Shown: one piece after another, positions 71 to 54,400 of the stretch
Layout: each line of letters begins with the position of its first letter
Position numbering within the stretch: position 1 is the first letter of the stretch
Origin: Liolophura sinensis
Lineage: Eukaryota > Mollusca > Polyplacophora > Chitonida > Chitonidae
DNA length: 64,000 nucleotides
Assembly: GCF_032854445.1 (NCBI RefSeq)
Contig: NC_088306.1
Coordinates: forward strand, 21,361,764-21,425,763
Reading direction: 5' to 3'
Translations under genes and position numbers: made by a program
Notes under the pieces: model-generated
Database searches by the model: none
Told to the model about the DNA's origin: nothing
The model's input: the letters and a program-made list of their open reading frames with translations, nothing else

Positions 71-3000
71 GTCCGGATGTGTCCGTAGAATCCTTACTTC
101 CCGTGGGAAATGTGGGGCATGGTTTGGCGTGGTCTTACTACAGTGGCTACCTCAAAATCCTTTTTCCAAGTAAGTGGAGCTTAGTGTACACCAAATGATA
201 ACGTGAAACCACATCAAACATGAACAATGCAGCGCATCTCGGTGCAATCGGACCACATGATGTTTTTAAGGAATTCTCATGTAATCTTTCTTTGCAGGCG
301 ACGAGCGGAAAGTTCGATGACGTTAGTATGAAATAATTATGCTTGAGACAGATATTTAGCTTACAAAAACAGTTGAGAGATAAGGTGGGCAAATCTTTTT
401 TCTCAGTGCTGACATTCTGACAGTGCTGCCTTACTGTAACGCCATGTTGAAGACAGTCACTGGATATGCTGACACCGAATTCCCCTGCTTTTGTATGGTC
501 TATCCTGCATTTCTATGGCCTGTCGCAAAGCAAAGAAGCGTCAAAATTGCCGACTTTCAGTCTTGACACGATCTCACACGGATTTCTAACTTCTCGGCCT
601 CTTTAGAACTGTCTTATGACCTTTAGGATGCAGTTAATTTTCCTGCTTTTTTTTGGCACTTGTAAACATGCTTTAACGTGCAGTCCTGTTGAGCTGTTCC
701 AAATCTTCAAACCCAAAATATATAAGACTACGACATAGAGAGTAAAACAAGAATAACCACGACATTGTGATAATGGGCAAATGGTCGCAGGTAACCGGTG
801 AAATGCGGCCTCGGGTCAGGTTACATTACTCCAACTGTTCATGCAAATACTACAATATAGTAGCAATCTACACGCCCGCTAGCACCCTGTTAACCTGTTG
901 TTGACACGCCAGTGGTAATAATCTCGACCTTAGAATTTTTATCTTTATTCTAAACAATACAGCGGTCTGAAAGAGCCAGATTGGCAACGGGTGATGCGAA
1001 AAGTTTACCCGGTTCCTTCGTGTCTGCAGCAACCCAAGTTTCAGCTAATACCAACCAGATCACACCTTACAATAAGCCTGTCCTACAAAATGACTCCCTC
1101 CCAAGGGGAGAAAAACGCCAGGCTAACCAAGAATGTTATAATTACCATGTGTGTTCTTATGAGATATATGACAGCCTCCGTGGCCGAGTATAGTTGCGCT
1201 AGCGCAGCACTATGACCCGTGAGTCTCTCACCAATACGGTCGCTGTGAGTCTAAGACCAGCTCATGATGGCTTCTTCTCCTGTCATACTTGTTAAGTTTA
1301 TCCAGCAACCCAGTGGCGGATTTGCCCTGTTTTTGTCCCACCATTATGCTTGCCGCCGTCGTTAAGGTGAAGTATTCTTCAGTACTGCGTAAAACATAAA
1401 CCACCTGAATCAATAAATAGATTAGATGTAGATTGTGTGTTGCAGTACTAGAAAAGGCAACAAAATTGCTTATTTGAGTTGAATTGACAATTGTATAGAA
1501 TGGAAAAGATTCCTGTACATTTCAGTGTTTCATTGCAGTTTTTCTTCCCTTCTTTTTAGAACTTCGTGATCGGATCCAGAAAAGTCCACAATGGCGCTCA
1601 GATCCCACGCGTATGCCACGAAGAATGTACCTCCTTTTACCGGAGAGCTGCAAATGTCCGGCAAAACTGACTGCTTGGGACGAGAAAATCGTGGCTGACA
1701 AGCCGTTAGAAGGTGTAACAAAGATGAGAGCTGGCAAGGAAAGGAATTATTGTAACTCCGTTTACAAAATACAAGATGACAAGGTGCAAATTTTATGAAT
1801 TAAGGTTAATTGTTGGCTTCTGTTCGGTAATGATGTAAAAGTGTGAAGTGTTAAGACCAAGGCTATCAAAGAAATCTGTAACTTTTAAGTGTGAAGACAT
1901 GTACATGTAGTGTTTAATGTGATAAACTGTACAATAAACTTCATAGACGTTTTGTTTAAAATAAGCATTTTATCTTTACGCCAAATAGAAGTTTATTTTC
2001 GTTTCAAGAAAATTCATTTCATTTTTATATTCAAAAACTGGTATTTTCAAATATTTATTTCTTTTTTTTTTTACATCTGCAATAGGAATGGTATTATTTT
2101 GTGAGCGAGTTTTGTTCAGTGGTCCTTCCAATGAACGACATGGAGGAAGGTGGAATCGCCCGGATGAGCTCTGATGAAAAGAAACGACAGCTGTATCGCT
2201 TCAAATGTACCTTAGAACATATACTTGGGTATTACCACTTAAACAAGTACAGACTCATTCTGTATAACGACACTGAGGGTGAGTAAATGTACCCTGGGGG
2301 ATATACCTGGGTTACTATTCACACAAGTACAGACTCATTCTGTATAACGACACTGAGGGTGAGTAAATGTACTCTGGGGGATATACTTGGGTTACTATTC
2401 ACACAAGTACAGACTCATTCTGTATAACGACACTGAGGGTGAGTAAATGTACTCTGGGGGATATACTTGGGTTACTATTCACACAAGTACAGACTCATTC
2501 TGTATAACAACACTGAGGATGAGTAAATGTACTCTGGGGGATATACTTGGGTTACTATTCACACAAGTAGACTTATTCTGTATAACGACATTGAGGGTGA
2601 GTAAATGTAGTCTGGGGGATATACTTGGGTTACTATTCACACAAATACAGACTTATTCTGTATAACGACACTGAGGGTGAGTAAATGTACTCTGGGGGAT
2701 ATACCTGGGTTACTATTCACACAAGTACAGACTCATTCTGTATAACGACACTGAGGGTGAGTAAATGTACTCTGGGGGATATACTTGGGTTACTATTCAC
2801 ACAAGTACAGACTCATTCTGTATAACGACACTGAGGGTGAGTGAATGTACTCTTGGGGGATATACTTGGGTTACCACTCAAACAAGTACAGACACATTCT
2901 GTATAATGACAGTGAGGGTGAGTAAATGTACTCTGTGGAATATACTTGTGTATTACCACTCAAACAAGTACAGACACATTCTGTATAATGACAGTGAGGG

Positions 3001-5799
3001 TGAGTAAATGCACTCTGTGGAATATACTTGGGTTACCACTTAAACAAGCACAGACACATTGTGTATATTGAGACTTTCCTCCCACCATAATGTGGCCGCC
3101 GTCGTATAAGTGAAATGTTCTTAAGTGCGGCGTAAAAAACCAATCAAATAAATAAATAAAATAATATTTAGCCCAGAGATCATGTGGCCAACCTACATAA
3201 AATCTGCCTTGTAGATCAGTTGTCAACTTGCCAACTCCAAAATTGGGATGTTTTAATTCAAGAATCGTTTGGGTGATTGCTGTGTTTTTGGAGAACACAA
3301 AAAGATATTTAGAATTTCAATAGAATTTCAGAGTTTTTTTTAAACGAAATTAGGGTGTTTTACAAAAGAGATAACAGCACGCATGTCCGTTCTTACGGCA
3401 TCTATTTATTGTAAAAATCAAAACTTTTCCTGATCATCACAACTGATGGTGCCATAGCATTACTCATTCTGGCATTCCATGCTGTGTTTGCAGACAACCT
3501 GGGTGTTGGGACAGTGTCCAAAACTCTATTAGAGCTGATCAGAGAAGATATACGTACCGATATTGAATCCGATGAAGTGGGCGGTAAGGAGGAAAATGAC
3601 GTCATTGCTGTTATTCATGTATAGCCTTCATTTTACACATCTGAGGATTTCTGGAAGGGGATTGTCGAATTGCTGGGTTTCCGGGTTTAGTTTTCTATTT
3701 ATTTGACTTATTTGTTTGATTGGATTTTGATTTGATTGGTGTTTTACGCCGCACTCAAGAGTATTTCACTTATACGACGGCGGCCACCATTATTGTGGAA
3801 GAAAACCGGACAGAGCCCGGGGGAAACCCACTACCATCCGCAGTATGCTGCAAGACCTTCCCACGTACGGCCGGAGACGAAGTCAGCATGAGCTGGACTT
3901 GAACTCACAGCGACCGCGTTGGTGAAAGGCTCCTGGGTCATTAGGCTGTGCTAGCGCGCTAACCAACTGAGCCACGGAGGCCCCCCCTTGTTTGATTGTT
4001 TGTTTGTTTGTTTGTATGTGTGTTTGTTTGTTTGTTTGATTGATTGATTGATTGAGTGATTGAGTGATTGGAGTTTTACGCCTTAAAAATATTTCACTTA
4101 TGCAATGGAAACCAGCATTATGGCGGGAGGGAACCGCAGGAAACTCACAAACATCCCAGAGTTGCTGGTTGACCTTCCCACATACGACCTGAGCAGAAGC
4201 TAGCAAACTCACAGCCATCTCAATTGTGAGAGGTTCCTGGGTCATTGTGCTGTGCTAGCAGGCTAACCATTATCCCACTAACCCATTACCCCACTAACCA
4301 TTAGCCCACTAACCGTTAGCCCACGGAGACCCTTTCAGTTTTGTAAAATAAAGCCTCATTTTAACATAGGCTTGTTTTCTTGATCAGGGGGTATCTTGCT
4401 AGAATACCTGCAGGATCAAAACAAAACAGAGAAAATCTAAAAAATATTCCCGAAATTTGATCACAATGGAGCAGAAAAATGAAATAAATGGTTATAGCCT
4501 TCCAAGAAACCCCAGCCGTTTTCTCTTACCAGTAAGGTGTATAACACATATTCTAGCAGATTTCCTCTCTGTTAACAGGCATTCACAATTCTCTTTTCAG
4601 CTTCTGTGCGTACTGACCAATCTCCAGACATAGATCCGAAAAGGTTTGAATTTAGTGACCAATATTTATTCACTTGTGCGTGATTTGTTTTACCCAATAT
4701 CCACTGTATCTCGCCTTTCCTATAGTCAAGAATATCTCACTTAAACGACTGCGGCCAACATTATGGTTGTAGAAAGCTGGGCAAAAACCGAGGGAAACCC
4801 ACGACCATCCCCAGATCTACCGCAAAGGAAACCAACATGAGCGACTCACAAAGACAGCTTTGGTGAGAGGAATTATTCTGCGCTAGCACGGTAACTACTT
4901 GGCAATGTACGGAGACCCCCGTAATCCTGTTATAGTTTTCAATGCTGTTACCCACAAAATGTGTTCCCTTGAAACTGTGCGGTGTATCCATCAGAAACTC
5001 AAAATTATTGAAACATTTTGTGGATGACATTATCTCAGTTGTCTCAGTGAGGGATTCTGGAAAATGAACTTTTTCGGAAAGGTTTTCTTTAGAGGGGAAG
5101 GAATTGGAAGAAAAGATTAACCTTGAAGGAAATAAGTGTTTACGTTGCATGCTTGTTTTCAGCTCTAGGAATGAAGGCGTCTCCATTGAAGCAGTAAAGA
5201 GTACTTCCAATGGCGATTTTGCTATAGAAACCCATGGTGTCCCGGATGTTGAGCAACCGGAAGTCACCAACGGTCTAGATCTAGGTCAGCACTGGAAATA
5301 TCACGCTTTCATCATGTACGGAGAAGGTGAAGAAGACCGGAAGTTCGCCATAGAATTAACGAACTTTCTGGAGAAAGAGAAAAACATGAAATGCGCCGCC
5401 AAAGATCGAGATCTGACGGAAAATACGACAATGTTTGACCAGATGACAGAGATAATAAGGCGATCCAAGAGAACCGTCTTGATCATGTCCGATGAAACCT
5501 CTGCGCCTGAGTTGACGATCTTCCAGATGTTGAGAGTTCCGAACAGAGACGAATTTGAGCGATCCGTCCAGCCAATACCAGTTCTACGAGGAACACCCAA
5601 AGAAAAGGATATCAAAGACTTTTGTAGAAATCTAACATACGTCGAAACTACAGAAATGGATTATAAAGAGCGTTTATTCAGGGCGTTAACAGGTAAGAGA
5701 TTATCATAAACTTTACACTATACAGATACATCAGTATAAGTTTATTTAATTATTCATTTGCCCACAGACCTGCAGGCTTTAGGCATTTCGCACAAATGA
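71..5799 (+). CDS. STING: STING-TIR fusion protein (5' end outside the window)
   Basis: Innate immune sensor: a STING cyclic-dinucleotide-binding domain followed by a TIR domain. Exons read by hand: 71-169, 1560-1783, 2086-2278, 3494-3583, 4601-4643, 5163-5692, 5768-5799 (TGA). Every junction is GT-AG and the phases agree (1,0,1,1,2,1), giving 402 codons. Exon 1 has GLAWSYYSGYLK, matching human GLAWSYYIGYLR. Exon 2 has MYLLLPESC and RNYCNSVY, matching YILLPLDC and RVYSNSIY. Exon 3 has the E260-region segment. Exon 4 ends the STING fold. The TIR starts at 5299 (YHAFIMYG), with KDRDL as the BB-loop-like segment and RTVLIMSDE. A polyA signal AATAAA lies at 5993-5998. The donors after exons 2 (GTGCAA) and 5 (GTTTGA) are weak. 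Any N-terminal or membrane exons lie upstream and cannot be seen. STING-TIR fusions are known in bivalves; the exact domain order should be compared with those. Confidence 0.93.
737..905 (+). repeat. Dispersed repeat family C
   Basis: CATAGAGAGTAAAACAAG, GGTAACCGGTGAAATG and CACGCCCGCTAGCACC. Related copies: 8115-8245 (+), 10780-10985 (-), 23888-24070 (+), 32452-32585 (-), 34394-34525 (+). A conserved core (AGAGTAAAACCAGAGCA and GTAACCGGTGAAAT) in both orientations marks a transposable element of unknown class. Confidence 0.7.
1168..1424 (+). repeat. tRNA-derived SINE (family A), full-length, diverged
   Basis: Begins with a tRNA-like head (GCCTCCGTGGCCGAG, with a box-B-like GAGTCTAAGACC), continues through the family body, and ends with GCCGCCGTCGTTAAGGTGAA and an AATAAATA tail. 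It lies in the first visible intron of STING-TIR. Confidence 0.8.
2217..3068 (+). repeat. ~80-bp minisatellite spanning exon 3 end and 5' splice site of STING-TIR
   Basis: About ten units of 78-82 bp. The first lies over the last codons of exon 3 and its donor. Each unit repeats the coding end (KYRLILYNDTE) followed by GGTGAGTAAATG. Donor GTs fall at 2279, 2359, 2439, 2597, 2677, 2757, 2837, 2918 and 3000. The unit near 2519 has GGAT in place of GGGT, so its donor is lost. The final unit (to about 3068) is degenerate and runs into a SINE tail. Reading past donor 1 meets TAA at once (GGT GAG TAA), so only the first donor supports the full protein. Confidence 0.93.
3071..3165 (+). repeat. SINE family A, 3' fragment
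   Basis: TTTCCTCCCACCATAATG, then GCCGCCGTCGTATAAGTGAA, then GCGGCGTAAAAAACC and an (AAATA)n tail. It abuts the end of the 80-bp array. Confidence 0.88.
3710..3985 (-). repeat. SINE family A, full-length, minus orientation
   Basis: Read on plus: GATTGGTGTTTTACGCCGCA at the start, and the reverse complement of the tRNA-like head (GCTAACCAACTGAGCCACGG) at the end. It lies in the intron between STING exon 4 and the linker exon. Confidence 0.92.
4005..4330 (-). repeat. SINE family A, diverged, minus orientation, with (GTTT/GATT)n tail
   Basis: A TTTG/TTGATTGA simple tail, then GGAGTTTTACGCC, AATATTTCACTTATGC and CAGCATTATGGCGGGAGG. A head-like TGGGTCATTGTGCTGTGC is followed by repeated CCACTAACC. 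It stands head-to-tail next to the preceding SINE. Confidence 0.8.
4720..4918 (-). repeat. SINE family A fragment, minus orientation
   Basis: TCAAGAATATCTCACTTAAA, CATTATGGTTGTAGAAAG and ACCCACGACCATCC, ending ACGGAGACCCCC. It lies between the 43-nt linker exon and the TIR exon. Confidence 0.8.
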
Positions 5800-6605: not shown

Positions 6606-7074
6606 AGCCACCACAAGATAGAAAAAAGTGTGCTTTTTTCAGCCTATATTGTCATTGTTTTCTTCTCCTTCAACTTTAAGCCAAGTCTTTAATTTTGTAC
6701 TTAGCCTAAAAATATTGTATAACATTGTATTTAATATGATCTAAAACTGCCGCTGTTATACTTTGACTTTAAAGGACTTCATTGGCTGCTAAGTTTGACT
6801 GAAAATTTGAATATAAGATATGACTTCATACCAGTATTAGCTAATACACTTTCGAACAACAGGTGTCACAGATTCAAGGCCGCCGTCGTGTAAGTGAAAT
6901 ATTCTACAATACAGCGTCAACGCCAACGAAATAAATGAAATAAATACATATTACAGCAGAATTTTTCACATTTCTTAAATTCTCCACTTTCGAGAACTGT
7001 GTTATGCATGTTTCACGGAGAAAAAATTACGTTGTCATTATAGTCATCCTGAATTAGCATTATTTTTTGTGTGT

Positions 7075-7387: not shown

Positions 7388-10300
7388 TTAAGGTGCCTCA
7401 TCTTCCGGCTGGTAACGTCGCGGAGGGATTTGCTTGGAGCTACTTTTACAGATATTTAAAGCTAGTGCTTCCAGGTAATTACGTGTATATGGGAGAATGT
7501 TATTTTGTAATAGTGTGTTGGATGGGAACGTGTTCGAATTGTTAATGTGGTGGCCACATGAAGGGTGGGTTCAGTTTCGTACGTACTTGACTCCCATCAC
7601 AGCTCCTCTGGGCCTCGGTGACTATAAGCGTTTGACGGTGCTGTCTAGTGTGCTGTTGTATAAAGTTCCCTGAAGGCCACTTGCAGCAATGTGACATGTG
7701 TCACACGTGGAAGAGTTCGCCAGTAACTCGCCAAATGCCGGTGGTTTTTCCCGGGCACGCGGGTTTCCTGTCCCCATAAAACTGGCAGCCATATTACAAG
7801 TCCAAATTTCGTGAATATGACGTTAAACAATGTTGAGATCATAATCAGAGAGCCTATAGCGATAAAATGCTAACGCGTTCTCGCATCGAGTGGTCGCCAT
7901 GAATGTGTAGGTTATCCGTTCAGGTTATTTTCGGCTGGGCCTTTACGTTATTGTTGTTTGTTTTTGTTTTTTTGTTTTGTTTTTTTTTGTTTGTTTGGTT
8001 ATTTGTTTTTGGGGGGGGGGGGGTTATTCGCGATATTTAATCATAAAGTGTTTTTTATCAGAAAATTTCTTAACATAAGTGAAGTAAGCCTACGTAAATG
8101 TTACTGATATAAAACACTTTAGCAAGGAGAGTAAAACCAGAGCAACGACAACAGTGTGATAGTTGGTAGATGGCTATAGGTAACCAATGACATGTGGCAG
8201 TTCACCTCACTTAGGGTTTTATTATATTCTTCTAACCAGGGCTTAGGTCAAAAAGATTACGGTGATATCGCATGCAGTATATTAGACGTCTTTGGTTTAT
8301 AGAATTACTCGAATGATTACGTTGATATCACAAGCAGTTTATTAGACGTCTTTGGTTTATAGTATTACTCGAAAGATTACGCTGATATCGCATGCAGTTT
8401 ATTAGACGTCATTGATTTATAGTATTACTCAAAACGATGTGATGTAATGACATTTATTAAACAGTTCTATGAAAATAGGATGCTCCGTGATTCAGCTCAT
8501 TCACTGGTAGTTACAATAAGCTTTCGAGGATATCCAAGTTGGGAGTTCAAACCTGGCCTTTGTCAGGGAATTACCCAACCCACTAAACCCATAGAGTTAT
8601 TGACCGCCATTATATAAGAGAAAATTCTTGTGTGTGGCGTTAAATAAATAAATAAATAAATAAATAAACTAAATAAGTAAATATAATTATTTAGAATTAA
8701 AGAGACACTACCGTTGAATATTAGAATACTCCGCAAGTCACGTGAAATCGGCGCTGTTCTCGACCTTGTGATATTAATGTGTTAATAACACATGCAAATA
8801 ACACATGCACTTAAAGCATACAAGCAATTAAGTGACATTATACAAGCAATTAAGTGACAATATGCAAGAAATTCAGTAATTAAATGACAATATACAAGCA
8901 ATTAAGTGACAATATAATAACAATTTAAGTGACAATATACAAGTAATTAAGTGACAATATACAAGCAATTAAGTGACAATACACAAGCAATTAAGTGACA
9001 TATAAAAGCAATTAAGTGACAATACACAAGCAATTAAGTGACGATATACTTGCAATTTAAGTGACAATATGCAAGAAATTCAGTGACAATATACAAGCAA
9101 TTAAGTGACAATACACAAGCAATTAAGTGACAATATACAAGCAGTTAAGTGACAATACACAAGCAATTAAGTGACAATATACTAGCAATTTAAGTGACAA
9201 TATACAAGCAATTAATGACAATATACAAGCAGTTAAGTCACAATGTACCTATTCACTAGGGCTGAAGAGTCGAATGAAGGACAGCGACTGGTATTCGGAA
9301 TACCGCAGAACGATCTCACACAAGATGTTTATCTTCATGCCGGACAGTGGCCGGACGCCGGAAAGATTGGAAGAAATCCCGGGTGTGAAAGTGGCCGGAA
9401 GTGTCGCCTGTGAAAGAGATGCAGCCGGAAACATCAAAAGGAGTTATGATAGCACTGTTTACAGCGTGCAAGACAAAACAGATGGACAGGTAAGAATGGC
9501 TCTCGTGTTTAGCACTAGTGCCCTACAGGCTTAATGACAATGAAATGGACAGGTAAGAATGACTCTCATGTTTAGTTCTAAGTCCCTATAGGCTGAAAGA
9601 CAAAGAAATGGACAGGTAAGAATGGCTCTAATGTTCAGCACTAGTGCCCTACAGGCTGAAAGACAAAGAATTGGACAGGTAAGAATGGCTGTCAAATCAG
9701 TGCCCGTTATGCTGTTTAATTAGTCCAGGGCTAATGTTTTATTGCTTTGAAACACAAACTGTGAATAAAATCTGATTTTCTTGGATTGATTATACATGTA
9801 TGTGTATACTTTCATAATGCTTTTGATTAAATAAGTACGACTGTTCGGATGAAAAAAAAAACATCTTTCCAACTCGAATGATAGAAGTCGAATGAAAATA
9901 GCATTCGATTTGTACCTTGCAACTGAAATACACTGAAAGTTCACTGTTTTCAATTTTGTTCTGCATGACAAAGCTGCTGTGACCAATCGCAGTGTCGAAC
10001 ACCGCTTATGGCACTCCTCGAGTTTTTAGCTGTACATTATTATACTGACATGGGCTATTGGGGAACCTCCATGGGCGAGTGGAGCAATGACCCACGGGGG
10101 CATCTCACCAGTTTAGTCGGTTTGAATCCTCTCCAGTCGTACGTGGGAAGGTCTGCCAGAAACGTGAGCATGGTCATGTGTTTCCTCCGGGCTCTGACCG
10201 GTTTCCTCCCACTATAAGGCTGACAGCAATTGTAAAAGTCAAATATTCTTGAATGCGGCGTAAAATACTAGTCAAATAAATAAATAAATAAATAAATAAA

Positions 10301-12073
10301 TAAAGATGCACATCCATGTACAATGTACTTGTACAAATTTCTGAATACTTCCTGTAAATAGATGTCCAAAGATCCTTATTTTTGTTATATTATGCACATT
10401 CTTGTTTCTCTCCGGTCATACGTTGAAAGGTCTGCCAGCATCCTCCCACCATATTGCTGGCCGCAGTCGTATAAATGAAATATTCTTGAGTACGGGATAA
10501 AACGCAAATCAAATAAATAAATACACTAATAGGGCGCCTTATCCGCCGGAAGTAATTCCTAAGTTGCATACACTATTGCTCATTCCTGTCTCTGCGACGA
10601 CGTTTTGTGGTCAAACTGAGTATTGGATTCTGCTGGTGGACTAAGTATCCCCGAGGCCTGGTCCCTTCTGGATCGTTTTAAAGTTATTTGTATTTTCAAC
10701 ACTGCATTTTAAGCAATTCTAGATCAGTGACGCCAAATAAATTGCAATGAACATCACTGCATCTTATTTACCTAATTCTGTTTAAGCCACGGTGCTGAGG
10801 GCGTAAAATTTTGCTACTACATTTGCATGAACAATTAGAATACAACCATGGCTGAGGTAAATTGACAAGAGGACGTGCTTCACCTGTTACGTGTGACCAT
10901 TTGCCAGCTACCACATTTGTCAGCTATCATACTGTGGTCGCTGCTCTGGTTTTCCTCTCTGTGCTGTATGACCTTAGTCATGTGTTATTCATTGAAAACT
11001 GGGTAGAACGTTGTTCATACAAACAGTTAAAATATTAGACAAGGAAATAAAGGTTAGTTCAGCTTGGTACCGAATGAGAAAATGTACCGTGTTAAATGAG
11101 TGACCATATATTTCACCTGTTCATACAATCAGGTGTATCACTTTGTTGGGGAGTATCTCAGCCCGCTGGCGGTGATCCATGACATGGAGTGTGGACAGGA
11201 GGCGGGACTAAGCTCTGCTGCACGTGTCAAGCAAGTCAGTCGGCTCTACGATCGCGTGAAGGATATTCTGAATCATGAACATGCGCAGGATCTCAAAGGA
11301 ACATGGCGTCTCTTCCGGTATGACGGTAAGTGATGCAGATTCCTGCCGATGTTTGTCTTATTACTAGATACATAAATTAACTGAAACAATTAAACTTTTA
11401 ATAGCTGCCTCTTGCACTTGTTTTTCTTTGACGTATTTCCCATTTGACATTTTCTGTCTTTGTCATTTTTTCTTCCATTTTAACACATATAGACTCTTTT
11501 CTTTATTTCCACTGCACGTATCCCTTAAGTACAATTGTCCTATCAACCAAATATTAAGATCTAAGATGTCGAGTAACACAAAGGCTCAGCAAAACTGTCG
11601 TCCTAATTTGATATTTCCTTCCCGTATTACAGTTTGTTAACAACCACAACTATTATCATTACGCAAGCTTCTCCCTTGTTTAAAATAGTTAGGGAGCTGA
11701 CCCGTGTCGCTTGCCTGTCAGTTGCCGGAACACACAAGGTACGGGTTCAAACCTGACCTTGGACAGGAAATTGTAGTTTCAGTTCTCATTGACGACCATT
11801 TATCTTCCACCAGTATGGTGTGCATACATATCTGTATGTCACATTTGCCAAAGGTCGGGGGTTTTTCTTTGGGCACTCCGGCCAGCTCCACCCCGTAAAT
11901 AGGACCACCGTAATATTGGTAAAAAATTCATCGTGTCATTAAACAACAGTCAAATAAATAAACATTTTAAACATTCGTGCCATTTGTTCTTTGTAGATTC
12001 CTGTGAAAAACTCTCCGATATATCAGGACAGCTTGTGGAGCTTATACAAGAAGATTTGGAAAAAGAATATTAG
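7388..12073 (+). CDS. STING: STING paralogue without TIR domain (first exon not found)
   Basis: Second STING cyclic-dinucleotide-binding domain, in tandem with the STING-TIR gene. Exons: 7388-7474, 9260-9489, 11133-11325, 11997-12073 (TAG), 194 codons in all. The intron phases (1,0,1) are those of the upstream gene, and the third exon is 193 nt in both. Exon 1 has GFAWSYFYRYLKLVLP, exon 2 MFIFMPDSG and KRSYDSTVYSVQ, exon 3 FVGEYLSPL and a C-terminal WRLFRYD, exon 4 a short amphipathic end (LVELIQEDLEKEY). Human-numbered pocket positions S162, Y163, Y167, R238, Y240 and E260 are kept, and T263 is Ser. There is no TIR and no extended C-terminal tail. No start codon with a phase-1 donor was found between 5800 and 7388, so the N-terminus is unresolved: a tiny exon, a distant exon, or sharing of the upstream gene's first exons. 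Confidence 0.9.
8249..8430 (+). repeat. ~62-bp repeat, three copies, in STING-2 intron 1
   Basis: Three tandem copies, each containing GATATCGCATGCAGTTTATT and AGACGTCTTTGGTTTATAG, with a few substitutions. Confidence 0.85.
8816..9245 (+). repeat. 22-bp minisatellite just upstream of STING-2 exon 2
   Basis: Roughly 19 units of about 22 bp, consensus ACAAGCAATTAAGTGACAAT, with one- to three-base variants. The array ends only about 15 nt before the acceptor of the exon at 9260, so the array itself occupies the branch-point and polypyrimidine region. Confidence 0.9.
9481..9690 (+). repeat. 63-bp minisatellite spanning exon 2 end and 5' splice site of STING-2
   Basis: A little over three units of 63 bp. 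Each carries GGACAGGTAAGAATGG, which is the last codons of exon 2 plus a strong donor. Donors lie at exactly 63-nt spacing: 9490, 9553, 9616, 9679. The intervening sequence includes CACTAGTGCCCTACAGGCT. Use of donors 2-4 would add codons leading to a stop (LQA then TAA near 9532), so only donor 1 gives the STING fold. Confidence 0.92.
10090..10305 (+). repeat. SINE family A, plus orientation
   Basis: CATCTCACCAGTTTAGTCGG, CGTACGTGGGAAGGTCTGCC and GGTTTCCTCCCACTATAAGG, ending in (AAATA)n. A second partial copy follows at about 10410-10525. Both lie in STING-2 intron 2. Confidence 0.85.
11690..11965 (+). repeat. tRNA-like SINE family D in STING-2 intron 3
   Basis: GTACGGGTTCAAACCTGACC resembles a tRNA box B. 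The element ends GTCATTAAACAACAG and (AAATA)n. Related copies lie near 7645-7830, 8500-8650, 37725-37880 and 38360-38640, sharing a GGCGTTAAA-type tail. Confidence 0.65.
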
Positions 12074-13139: not shown

Positions 13140-14045
13140 AATTAAGGCAGGATTTTAGCACTTGTAAGAAGACCTAGATCTAGTCCGGATTTCAGCACGA
13201 CGAGATCTAGACTTAGGATTCCAGTATGATGAGATCTAGATTTAGTCAAAGTTTCAGCACAGGAAAATCTAGATTTAGTCAGAATTTCAGCACTGGACGA
13301 TCTAGATTTAGTCAGAATATCACCAGAGGATGATCTAGATTTAGTCAGAATGTCAAGAAAGGAAGATCTAGATTTATTCAGAATTTCAGCACAGGAAGAT
13401 CTTGATTTGGTCAGGATTTCAGCACAAGAAAATCTAGATTTAGTCAAAATTTCAGCACAGGAAAATCTAGGTTTAGTCAGAATTTCAGCACAGGACGATC
13501 TAGATTTAGTCAGAATTTCAGCACAGGTATATCTAGATTTAATTAGAATTTCACCAGAGGATGATCTAGATTTAGTCAGAATGTCAAGAAAGGAAGATCT
13601 AGATTTATTCAGAATTTCAGCACAGGAAGATCTTGATTTGGTCAGGATTTCAGCACAGGAAAATCTAGATTTCGACACAGGAAAATCTAGATTTAATCAG
13701 AATTTCAGCACAGGACGATCTAGATTTAGTCAGAATTTCAGCACAGGAATATCTAGATTTAGTAGAATTTCACCAGAGGAAGATCTAGATTTAGTCAGAA
13801 TATCACCAGAGGATGGTCTAGATTTAGTCAGAATATCACCAGAGGATGATCTAGATTTAGTCAGAATGTCAAGAAAGGAAGATCTAGATTTATTCAGAAT
13901 TTCAGCACAGGAAGATCCTGATTTGGTCAGGATTTCAGCACAGGAAGATCTAGATTTAGTCAGGATTTCGACACAGGAGCATCTTGATTTAGTCAGGATT
14001 TCACCACGGGAAGATCTAGATTTAGTAAGCATTTCATTCCAATGA
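13140..14045 (+). repeat. 33-bp minisatellite, ~27 units
   Basis: Unit GATCTAGATTTAGTCAGAAT plus a 13-nt variable end (TTCAGCACAGGAA, ATCACCAGAGGAT or GTCAAGAAAGGAA). Because 33 is divisible by three and stops are absent, long ORFs run on both strands (for example LDLVRISAQED repeated). There is no start context, splice signal or domain, so I read it as non-coding. Higher-order structure is visible: the GTCAAGAAAGG variant recurs at 13351, 13582 (231 nt = 7 units) and 13867. Confidence 0.93.
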
Positions 14046-26539: not shown

Positions 26540-27985
26540 CGACGGATAAGTGTACAGGCCTAGATGATGATACTTATACAGACCTAGATGATGATGCTTA
26601 TACAGGCCTAGATGATGATCCTTATACAGGCCTCGATGATGATGCTTCTACAGGCGTAGATGATGGTGCTTATCCAGAGCTAGATGCTGTTGCTCATACA
26701 GACCTAGATGATGATGCTTATACAGACCGAGATGATGATGCTTATACAGGCCTAGATGATGATGCTCATACAGGCCTAGATGATGATGCTTATACAGGCC
26801 TAGATGATGATGCTCATACAGAGCTAGATAATGATGCTCATACAGGCGTAGATGATGATGCTCATACAGACCTAGATGATGATGCCCATACAGACTTAGA
26901 TGATGATGCTCATACAGACCTAGATGACGGTGCTCATACAGACCTAGATGATGGTGCTCATACAGACCTAGATAATGATGTTCATACAGACCTAGATGAT
27001 GGTGCTCATACAGACCAAGATGATGATGCTCCTATAAGCCTAGATGATGTTGCTCGCACAGGCCTAGATGCTGATGCTCATACAGACCTAGATGATGATG
27101 CCCATACAGAGCTAGATGATGGTGCTCATACAGACGTAGATGATTGTGCTCATACAGACCTATATGATGGTGCTTATACAGGCCTAGATGATGATGATGC
27201 TCATACAGACCTAGATGATGGTGCTTATACAGGCCTAGATGATGATGCTCCTACAAGCCTAGATGATGATGCTCGCACAGCCCTAGATGATGATGCCCAT
27301 ACAGGCCTAGATGATGATGCTCCTATAAGCCTAGATGATGTTGCTCGCACAGGCCTAGATGGTGATGCTCATACAGAGCTAGATGATGGTGCTCATACAG
27401 ACCTAGATGATTGTGCTCATACAGACCTAGATGATGGTGCTTATACAGACCTATATGATGACGCCTGTACATGCCTAGATGATGATATTCATACACACAT
27501 AGAAGCTGATGTTCATACAGACCTAGATGATGGTGTATATAGATCTAGATGGTGACACTTATACAAGCCCAGCTGATGATCCCCACAAAGATATAGATGA
27601 CGCTGAAACAAGCCTAGATGGTGACACTTATACAAGCCCAGCTGGTGATACGCACATATACCTAGATGACACTGGTACAAGCCTAGATGATGATGCCTGT
27701 ACAACTCTAAATGATGATACGTATACAAACTTAGATTTTGACACTTATACAGACCTAGAGGTTGGTGCCTGTACAAGCCATTGATGATGGTGCTTATACA
27801 GACCTAGATCATGATGCTAATACAAGCCTACATGATGATGCACATGCATGGCTAGATGATGATGCACATACAGGCCTAGATGATGATGCTTATACTGACC
27901 TTGATTATGCCGGAACAAGCCTAGCTAATGATGCCTATAAAGACCTAGATGATGACAGATATTGATGCTTATACAGATGTAGATG
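26540..27985 (+). repeat. 24-bp minisatellite (array 1), ~58 units
   Basis: Unit close to GACCTAGATGATGATGCTCA followed by TACA, encoding LDDDAHTD-like octads in one frame. A 340-codon ORF (26533-27555) exists only because 24 is a multiple of three, and it opens with TTG rather than ATG. The minus strand is also open. Variation at the fourth to sixth base and GCT/CAT/TAT swaps are typical of a drifting array. I do not call it coding. Confidence 0.92.
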
Positions 27986-28084: not shown

Positions 28085-29310
28085 CGGTCTGCTTACACAC
28101 CGTACACGAGGATCCTTATCACCACACACGTGGATGCTTATACACCGCAAACGGTGATGCTTATATACCACACACGACGATGCTTATACACCATACACGC
28201 TTATGCTTATACACCATACATGAGGATTCTTACACACCCCACATGAGGATGCTTACGCACGACACACGTGGATGCTTATACACCACACACGTGGATGCTT
28301 ATGAGCCACACAAGAGTATGCTTATGCACCAAACACAAGGATGCTTATGCACCATACACGTGGATGCTTATACACCAAACACGAGGAGGATTATGCACCA
28401 TACACGTGGATGTTTATACACCACACACGAGGATGCTTATGCACCACACACGAGGATGCTTATGCACCATACACGAGGATGCTTATGCACCTCACACCAG
28501 GATGCTTATACCCACACACGAGAATGCTTATGCACCAAACACAGTGATGCTTATACACCACACACGAGGATGCTTATTCACCACACACGAGGATGCTTAT
28601 ACACCAAACACGAGGATGCTTATGCACCACACACGAGGATGCTTATGCACCAAACACGAGGATGCTTATGCACCACACACGAGGATGCTTATGCACCATA
28701 CACGAGGATGCTTATGCACCTCACACCAGGATGCTTATACCCACACACGAGTATGCTTATGCACCAAACACAGTGATGCTTATACACCACACACGAGGAT
28801 GTTTATACACCAAACACGAGGATGCTTACACACCCTACATGAGGATGCTTATGCACCATACATGAGGATTCTTACACACCACACACGTGGATGCTTATAC
28901 ACCACACACGAGGATGCTTATGAACCACACACGAGGATGCTTATGAACCACACACGAGGATGCTTATGCACCACACACGAGGATGCGTATGCACCAAACA
29001 CAGTGATGCTTATACACCGTACACGCTGATGTTTATACACCACACATGAGGATTCTTACACACCACACACGTGGATGCTTATACACCACACACGAGGATG
29101 CTTATGAACCACACACGAGGATGCTTATGAACCACACACGAGGATGCTTATACGCCACACACGTTGATACTTATACACCGCACACGAGGATGCTTATACA
29201 CCAAACACGAAGATGCTAATGCACCATACACGTGGATGCTTATACACCATACACGAGAGTGATTATATACACCACACACGAGGATGCTTATACACCACAC
29301 ACGAGACAGC
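28085..29310 (+). repeat. 23-bp minisatellite (array 2), ~52 units
   Basis: Unit GAGGATGCTTATGCACCACA plus CAC. With a 23-bp unit the frame turns every repeat, so all three plus frames stay open for up to 253 codons (for example MLMHHTRGCLCTTHEDAYAP). Those ORFs are products of the array. The unit shares GATGCTTATACA with array 1 next to it. Confidence 0.93.
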
Positions 29311-29319
29311 TTATACATT

Positions 29320-51400: not shown

Positions 51401-54400
51401 TCGCGTCTCATGGGTTATCATTTCCACGTCTTACTCGAACAATAGTTATGGTATTCAATCTTCACTGGGCAATATCCTCTATGTAGTATTCTACTTTCAA
51501 CGCTACGAACATCTGTCCCAAAAATTAGAAGAATTAGGGTACATACATTTTTATTTAATCACAGGTAAGCAAACCTCTGCTCTGGCTATTTTTGCAAAAC
51601 TTCATAAATCAATGTTTACTGACTTTTTTCATAATTGACATATGTTTTAAATCGCCACACAGCGATGTGATCTACGAGAAAAGTTACCAAAAATTGATTT
51701 TCAAAGTTCTGTCAAAGAGGGCCCTCAACCGTTTACTCAGAAATTTGCAAAGGTTGCTGAAAGTTTTCTATTGAATTGTCATTCTCAGGTGCCAGCAGCA
51801 CTGTTATAAGTGAATATGATTGAGTGACTATCAGGGTATTGACCAATGAGATTTAGAGTTCAAATCCAGCTTTTCCTGCAGCAATTTTAAGTCAGGTGGT
51901 TTGTCAGGTATCTCACAGACGGCATTGGTTTACTCTAGGCATAGACCTGACCACTGTCATGTGAGTGAGAAATTTTAGAGTAGTGAGGTAGATCTGTGAA
52001 TTGTATTTGTCAGGAATTACATGTAACTTGTATGTGTTGTTTCAGGTGTGATGCCTCTGTCTGTCAGCAGTATCAGTAGTCAACTCAACACCAATCTGTC
52101 TGTCCCCTCCCTGACCACAATAACTACCTGTACAGGCATAACCTCCACAATGACCACAACCTCAATACCCATAGGTAAGTGTGTGTACAACGCTATCAGT
52201 GGTCTGTCTGTCCCCTCGCTGACCACAATAGCTACCTGTACAGGCATAACCTCCACAATGACCACAACCTCAATACCCATAGGTAAGTGTGTGTACAACG
52301 CTATCAGTGGTCTGTCTGTCCCCTCGCTGACCACAATAGCTACCTGTACAGGTATAACCTCCACAACGACCACAACCTCATTACCAATAGGTCAGTGTAT
52401 GTACAACACTATCAGTAGTCTGTCTGTCCCCTCGCTGACCACAATAGCTACCTGTACAGGTATAACCTCCACAATGACCACAATCTCAATACCCGTAAGG
52501 AAGTCTGTGTACAACACTATCAGTGGTCTGTCTGTCCCCTCGCTGACCACAATAGCTACCTGTACAGGTATAACCTCCACAACGACCACAACCTCATTAC
52601 CAATAGGTAAGTGTGTGTACAACACTATCAGTGGTCTGTCTGTCCCCTCCCTGACCACAATAGCTACCTGTACAGGCATAACCTCCACAATGACCACAAC
52701 CTCAATACCCATAGGTAAGTGTGTGTACAACGCTATCAGTGGTCTGTCTGTCCCCTCGCTGACCACAATAGCTACCTGTACAGGTATAACCTCCACAACG
52801 ACCACAACCTCATTACCAATAGGTAAGTGTATGTACAACACTATCAGTGGTCTGTCTGTCCCCTCACAGACCACAATAGCTACCTGTACAGGTATAACCT
52901 CCACAATGACCACAACCTCATTACCAATAGGTAAGTGTGTGTACAACACTATCAGTGGTCTGTCTGTCCCCTCGCTGATCACAATAACTACCTGTACAGG
53001 TATAACCTCCACAACGACCACAACCTCATTACCCATAGGTAAGTGTGTGTACAACACTATCAGTGGTCTATCTGTCCTCTCGCTGATCACAATAGCTACC
53101 TGTACAGGTATAACCTTCATAACGACCACAACCTCATTACCCACAGGTAAGTCTGTGTACAACACTATCATTGGTCTGTCTGTCCCCTCGCTGACCACCA
53201 TACCTACCAATAGGTAAGTGTGTGTACAACACTATCAGTGGTCTGTCTGTCCCCTCGCTGACCACAATAGCTACCTGTACAGGTATAACCTCCACAACAA
53301 CCACAACCTCATTACCCAGAGGTAAGTGTGTGTACAACACTATCAGTGGTCTGTCTGTCCCCTCCCTGACCACAATAGCTACCTGTACAGGTATAACCTC
53401 CACAATGACCACAACCTCATTACCAATAGGTAAGTGTGTGTACAACACTATCAGTGGTCTGTCTGTCCCCTCGCTGATCACAATAGCTACCTGTACAGGT
53501 ATAACCTCCACAACGACCACAACCTCATTACCAATAGGTAAGTGTGTGTACAACACTATCAGTGGTCTGTCTGTCCCCTCGCTGACCACAATAGCTACCT
53601 GTACAGGTATAATCTCCACAATGACCACAACCTCATTACCCATAGGTAAGTGTGTGTACAACACTATCAGTGGTCTGTCTGTCCCCTCGCTGATCACAAT
53701 AGCTACCTGTACAGGTATAACCTCCACAACAACCACAACCTCATTACCCAGAGGTAAGTGTGTGTACAACACTATCAGTGGTCTGTCTGTCCCCTCCCTG
53801 ACCACAATAGCTACCTGTACAGGTATAACCTCCACAATGACCACAACCTCATTACCCATAGGTAAGTCTGAACAAAACTAGGATGTATCATCGGTCTGTC
53901 TCTTGCCTAATCACAACTGCTACTCACAGCTCTGAATACAAGTGATCAGCAAAACCACAACATGAGGTGGGGAAAACAAATTATTGTATGAGATTAGACC
54001 CATAGTGTGACCCTACTCCATCCTTCCATCCATGCAAGATGAAAGTGAAAAAGTGCAGGTTGCAGTCGATGTTTTCAGATCTTTTCACAATGGAGATATG
54101 GCAGGGGGGAAGGTGAAATCTGGACACCCTGCTCAATGAAAAGGTTCTGTTTGAAGAACACCTTACCTTTCTGTCTAACCCCCAGGCTTACTGTCTGACT
54201 TTCTGACCTCCAGAAAATAGCCAATATTAGAACGTACAGTTTTTTGGTTGATTGATATCTAGACTACAGTTTATAATAAATGCTGAAGTTCCCCATTTAG
54301 TAAACTCCAGGAGAGTATGATGATTTTATATCTTACTTTGATAACACCTGATGGTACAGGTGAAAATATGAATAATTGTTTTTCTGTTTCTGACATCTCT

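Follow-up and report, generated by a model that had tools for sequence, protein, structure and literature searches.

Exon organization of the locus

At the 5' end of the window (the whole stretch of 64,000 nucleotides that was analyzed, C12:21361764-21425763, in a genome of 609 Mb and 632 contigs that was also searched) lie exons encoding TIR and STING domains. There are two copies of the locus, here called A and B, which are inverted relative to each other and have diverged; their start codons lie 30.6 kb apart. The window cuts copy B, whose start exon and TIR1 exon lie upstream of window base 1.

C12:21358433-21358443, +, start exon, 11 coding nt (3331-3321 bases upstream of window base 1)
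C12:21359885-21360324, +, TIR1 exon, phase 2 to 1 (1879-1440 bases upstream of window base 1)
71-169, +, STING1 exon 1, phase 1 to 1
1560-1783, +, STING1 exon 2, phase 1 to 0
2086-2278, +, STING1 exon 3, phase 0 to 1
3494-3583, +, STING1 exon 4, phase 1 to 1, without stop
4601-4643, +, linker exon, 43 nt, phase 1 to 2
5163-5692, +, TIR2 exon, 530 nt, phase 2 to 1 (43-residue linker, then the TIR domain)
7388-7474, +, STING2 exon 1, phase 1 to 1
9260-9489, +, STING2 exon 2, phase 1 to 0
11133-11325, +, STING2 exon 3, phase 0 to 1
11997-12073, +, STING2 exon 4, stop TAG at 12071-12073
5768-5799, +, last exon of an earlier note on this DNA, rejected
With the window, start exon from C12:21358433, +, copy B
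C12:21310622-21327833, -, copy A, inverted and diverged

In copy B, the 12 exons read through as one open frame of 738 residues in the order TIR-STING-TIR-STING, with GT-AG borders at all 11 introns. The start exon runs from its ATG through 11 coding bases to a phase-2 donor fitting the TIR1 exon, the end of which (phase 1) fits the exon starting at window base 71, and the phase-1 donor of the TIR2 exon matches the acceptor phase of STING2 exon 1. TIR1-STING1 and TIR2-STING2 share their exon layout and phases (2-1 for the TIR exon, followed by 1-1, 1-0, and 0-1). STING2 exon 4 ends in a stop, whereas STING1 exon 4 has none at that place and ends at a phase-1 donor, which copy A retains. The earlier note had joined the exons from 71-169 to 5163-5692 by hand, and these indeed form one open frame with GT/AG borders, in which the STING and TIR exons are connected through the 43-nt linker exon. 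The gene limits that it drew were wrong at both ends, with the TIR1 exon and the start exon lying upstream and STING2 (7388-12073) downstream.

Copy A retains the start and linker exons and likewise has no stop after STING1; exon lengths modulo 3 are equal between the copies in 11 of 12 exons. The exception is TIR2, which in copy A measures 546 nt compared with 530 nt in copy B, is out of frame, and contains internal stops. By frame, copy A ends after 387 residues, that is, as a single TIR-STING; its STING2 is still open, with a terminal stop only, despite the broken TIR2. Synonymous divergence between the copies ranges from 0.47 to 1.28 across the four large segments; dN/dS values are 0.17 for TIR1, 0.23 for STING1, 0.32 for STING2, and 0.17 for the distal 97 codons of TIR2. 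The value for the linker is 1.1, which at 14 codons is too short to read.

The two short exons were compared between the copies. A 35-base start stretch upstream of TIR1 is shared at 28/35 positions (blastn E 0.016), a value reached by none of 500 shuffles; no counterpart of it was found between STING1 and TIR2, where the best matches were 17/35 in copy B and 18/35 in copy A. The linker exon has the same length (43 nt), phase (1-2), and place in the order in both copies, and its 78-nt neighborhood (exon and borders) has one match in copy A, at 45/78, with the next best at 35 and 0/500 shuffles, a similarity beyond chance. Only this similarity counts, because about one open 43-nt candidate exon (0.95) is expected per shuffled intron, and the presence of such an exon was rejected as evidence. 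Between the copies, the linker conserves 1/14 residues and 22/43 bases, and its donor, GTTTGA, is weak.

The locus also contains repeats. Tandem arrays at 2219-3067 (80 nt x 10.6), 9470-9694 (63 nt x 3.6), and, in copy A, C12:21321100-21321859 (41 nt x 18.5) each start inside the end of an exon, take in its 5' splice site, and run on into the intron. Three of 22 donors and none of 20 acceptors lie within arrays (STING2 exon 4 left out), which is no excess of donors because arrays cover 15.5% of the 126 kb; the in-array donors could act as decoys. A dispersed SINE-like element occurs at 3075-3160, 3743-3965, 4065-4270, 4723-4814, 6878-6946, and elsewhere, including around the linker exon. Further downstream, coding-looking minisatellites with long open frames lie at 13232-14036, 26553-27955, and 28090-29317, and a 108-nt tandem repeat occupies 52095-53867; its consensus unit contains the donor-like site GTAAGT, and both strands of the repeat carry long open frames. 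Seven downstream frames compared with Pfam gave weak matches for two and no family above the cut-off.

Domain identity and conserved residues

The STING domain claimed for the joined exons was confirmed by profile search of the joined protein (Pfam STING_LBD, E 1.6e-36, 125.8 bits, cut-off 27). The TIR domain claimed with it is matched by TIR_2 at E 4.5e-6, but its 27.6 bits fall just under the cut-off of 28. Taken by halves, TIR1-STING1 matches STING_LBD (E 3.2e-36, over the cut-off) and TIR_2 (E 2.1e-20). TIR2-STING2 matches STING_LBD (E 1.8e-30, over the cut-off) and, at 27.9 bits, again just under the cut-off of 28, TIR_2; yet it is colinear with PDB entry 6wt6 across the TIR-STING junction.

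Entry 6wt6, which together with 6wt7 we take to be the C. gigas structure, is also the best PDB match of the first half (E 5.5e-24), and that match too runs on across the junction. The title of 6wt6/6wt7 reads 'Metazoan TIR-STING fusion'. Residues 10-297 of the TIR2 and STING2 query align with residues 30-321 of the chain in one stretch (i-Evalue 2e-33). Because of this single-stretch alignment and of the phase-1 donor matching STING2 exon 1, we assign TIR2 as the N-terminal domain of a second TIR-STING unit, belonging by ancestry to STING2; the same splice phase and colinearity speak against the earlier view of TIR2 as a C-terminal output module. STING1 and STING2 are identical at 61/188 positions (70/185 in pairwise alignment), and their identities to oyster STING are 66/195 and 58/188, respectively. 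The duplication is probably old, since the distance between the two domains is about that of each to oyster.

Y163, R238, Y240, and E260, for which we assume human STING numbering and pocket roles, are kept in all four STING domains of copies A and B, Y167 in three, P264 in two, and T263 in one. R232 is retained by STING1 in both copies, whereas STING2 carries Ala or Glu at this position in the two. The alpha-C glutamate is present in TIR1 of both copies, as it is in the oyster TIR and in TLR1; the TIR2 position is occupied by Gln in copy B and, by eye, by His in the broken copy A. NAD cleavage by TIR2, one of the outputs proposed earlier, is unlikely because this glutamate is missing. The glutamate of TIR1 was rejected as proof of enzyme activity, as TLR1 carries it too.

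All five STING matches of a genome-wide search lie on C12 at 21.31-21.37 Mb, and a further search placed 12 of 13 matches in this cluster, the remaining one having an E of 6.7. No STING match at E 0.001 was found outside the cluster by this exon-by-exon search, which could miss others; the cluster is probably the STING receptor set of the genome. The TIR repertoire is large, with at least 120 candidates (all 120 scored matched, at E up to 10), for example on C13, C11, C4, C10, and at C12:18.63-18.79 Mb; many are clustered and have open frames of at least 800 residues.

One gene or two

We lean towards a single 12-exon animal immune gene, which would encode a soluble protein of 738 residues, TIR1-STING1-linker-TIR2-STING2, as a head-to-tail duplicate of the oyster-type unit. 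We favor this four-domain protein over two adjacent TIR-STING genes because the frame of copy B is open through 12 exons with a shared exon plan and GT-AG introns throughout, and because STING1 has no stop while its donor and the linker exon are kept in both copies. The same reading is suggested by the position of the sole conserved start exon found, which precedes TIR1, by the absence of an in-frame ATG in the TIR2 exon ahead of the TIR domain, and by the 519-nt interval between the linker and TIR2 in copy B, which contains neither AATAAA nor ATTAAA.

The alternative of two neighboring TIR-STING genes of the ordinary kind, both with the TIR at the N terminus, appears possible but doubtful; in that case, the linker would be the tail of the first gene, followed by a short unseen terminal exon. 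Each half alone makes a complete oyster-type TIR-STING, and copy A, with its TIR2 out of frame, ends at a length near the 396 residues of CgSTING. The conservation of an open STING2 in copy A (dN/dS 0.32) although TIR2 is broken also fits separate genes, as do an in-frame ATG immediately upstream of the TIR2 acceptor (5149-5151; ORF 5068-5709), which could start TIR2 in copy B, the unconserved linker residues, and the weak linker donor. AATAAA sites point the same way: two in the exon 4-linker interval of copy B (one in that of copy A) and two in the linker-TIR2 interval of copy A. After the STING2 stop, one ATTAAA occurs in about 1.1 kb of copy B, and neither motif occurs in about 1.0 kb of copy A. 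A cGLR preprint reports 3-10 STING genes per genome for animals that include S. pistillata, a coral, and C. virginica, an oyster (PMC9980059). Against two genes, a conserved start exon was not found upstream of TIR2, and comparison of copies A and B revealed no conserved terminal exon between the linker and TIR2; it matched the SINE-like stretches, the linker, and the start of TIR2, and the remaining short matches had E >= 0.29. Moreover, a terminal exon, 3' end, promoter, and first exon would have to be squeezed into 519 nt, part of which is taken up by a SINE remnant.

A mixed output of one locus, comprising the four-domain isoform and shorter ones (a TIR-STING ending after the linker, or TIR1-STING1-STING2 produced by skipping), is improbable, the argument for it being one of frame compatibility only. 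The frame holds when the linker and TIR2 are skipped, because both junctions are in phase 1, and copy A without these two exons forms one frame of 552 codons including a single terminal stop; skipping could explain why STING2 is kept while TIR2 decays in copy A. Least credible is a protein ending at 5799 with a C-terminal TIR, as first proposed, whether or not TIR1 stands in front. Exon 5768-5799 can be read in frame up to a stop, but copy A has no equivalent of it (best 30/67, equaled by 203/500 shuffles), and STING2 exon 1 fits in phase and aligns onward to 6wt6.

A putative single-chain receptor and known systems

STING is known to form a symmetric dimer. If the single four-domain gene is real, STING1 and STING2 may pair within the same chain and form a built-in, asymmetric receptor of cyclic dinucleotides. 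A nucleotide from a Mab-21/cGAS-like enzyme of the genome, in which the Mab-21 family has 17 matches, not all necessarily cGAS-like, would close the receptor and bring the TIRs together. TIR1, with its alpha-C glutamate, would then carry the output, by adaptor recruitment or, less surely, by NAD cleavage, and TIR2 would serve as a scaffold. We tentatively propose a natural single-chain STING dimer whose pocket, asymmetric in that only STING1 keeps R232, could recognize a cyclic dinucleotide that is itself asymmetric and would need no second chain, one TIR providing the output and the other the scaffold. If the tandem gene is true, two different half-sites are fixed in one chain, it becomes testable whether pocket asymmetry tunes ligand choice, and an internal duplication has added to the diversity of the rare animal TIR-STING. 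Read as two adjacent genes, the locus still shows a deep TIR-STING duplication in which one TIR has lost the alpha-C glutamate.

With vertebrate STING, the copy B protein has in common the ligand-binding domain and the core pocket residues. No transmembrane stretch was detected in it (highest 19-residue mean hydropathy 1.17), nor was a C-terminal tail motif of the kind that recruits TBK1 in vertebrate STING. It therefore differs from the vertebrate type, with its N-terminal transmembrane helices and TBK1-recruiting tail, and instead carries TIR domains. Fungal PNP-STING and other STING fusions likewise have an unusual partner, but a different one, and no tandem unit was seen among them in the available part of PMC12424679.

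Bacterial TIR-STING (SfSTING) is likewise a fusion of TIR to STING, but as a single unit; its TIR activity is described as requiring packing of STING filaments, with the alpha-C glutamate being catalytic (PMC9402430, in part). No bacterial STING was found among the PDB matches listed, 60 of 87 in two of the comparisons and 52/52 in the third. Published trees have led to animal TIR-STING being interpreted as a fusion that arose independently from animal domains (PMC10732462), while a review sees in the oyster STING-TIR an argument for prokaryotic descent (PMC8204762), as far as the available parts of these sources go. Animal TIR-STING is described as rare and the role of the oyster TIR as unclear in the part of PMC10732462 available.

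That the TIR-STING class was already known, as the earlier note stated, is borne out, both halves being of the oyster type. Searches of the open-licence literature revealed no tandem TIR-STING-TIR-STING form, and what would be new here is the tandem form, not the family to which its halves belong. In oyster TIR-STING, the best PDB match for both halves, the TIR precedes the STING, as it does in each half here; oyster CgSTING, however, is one unit of 396 residues (PMC8218723, in its available part), whereas copy B holds two such units in one frame.
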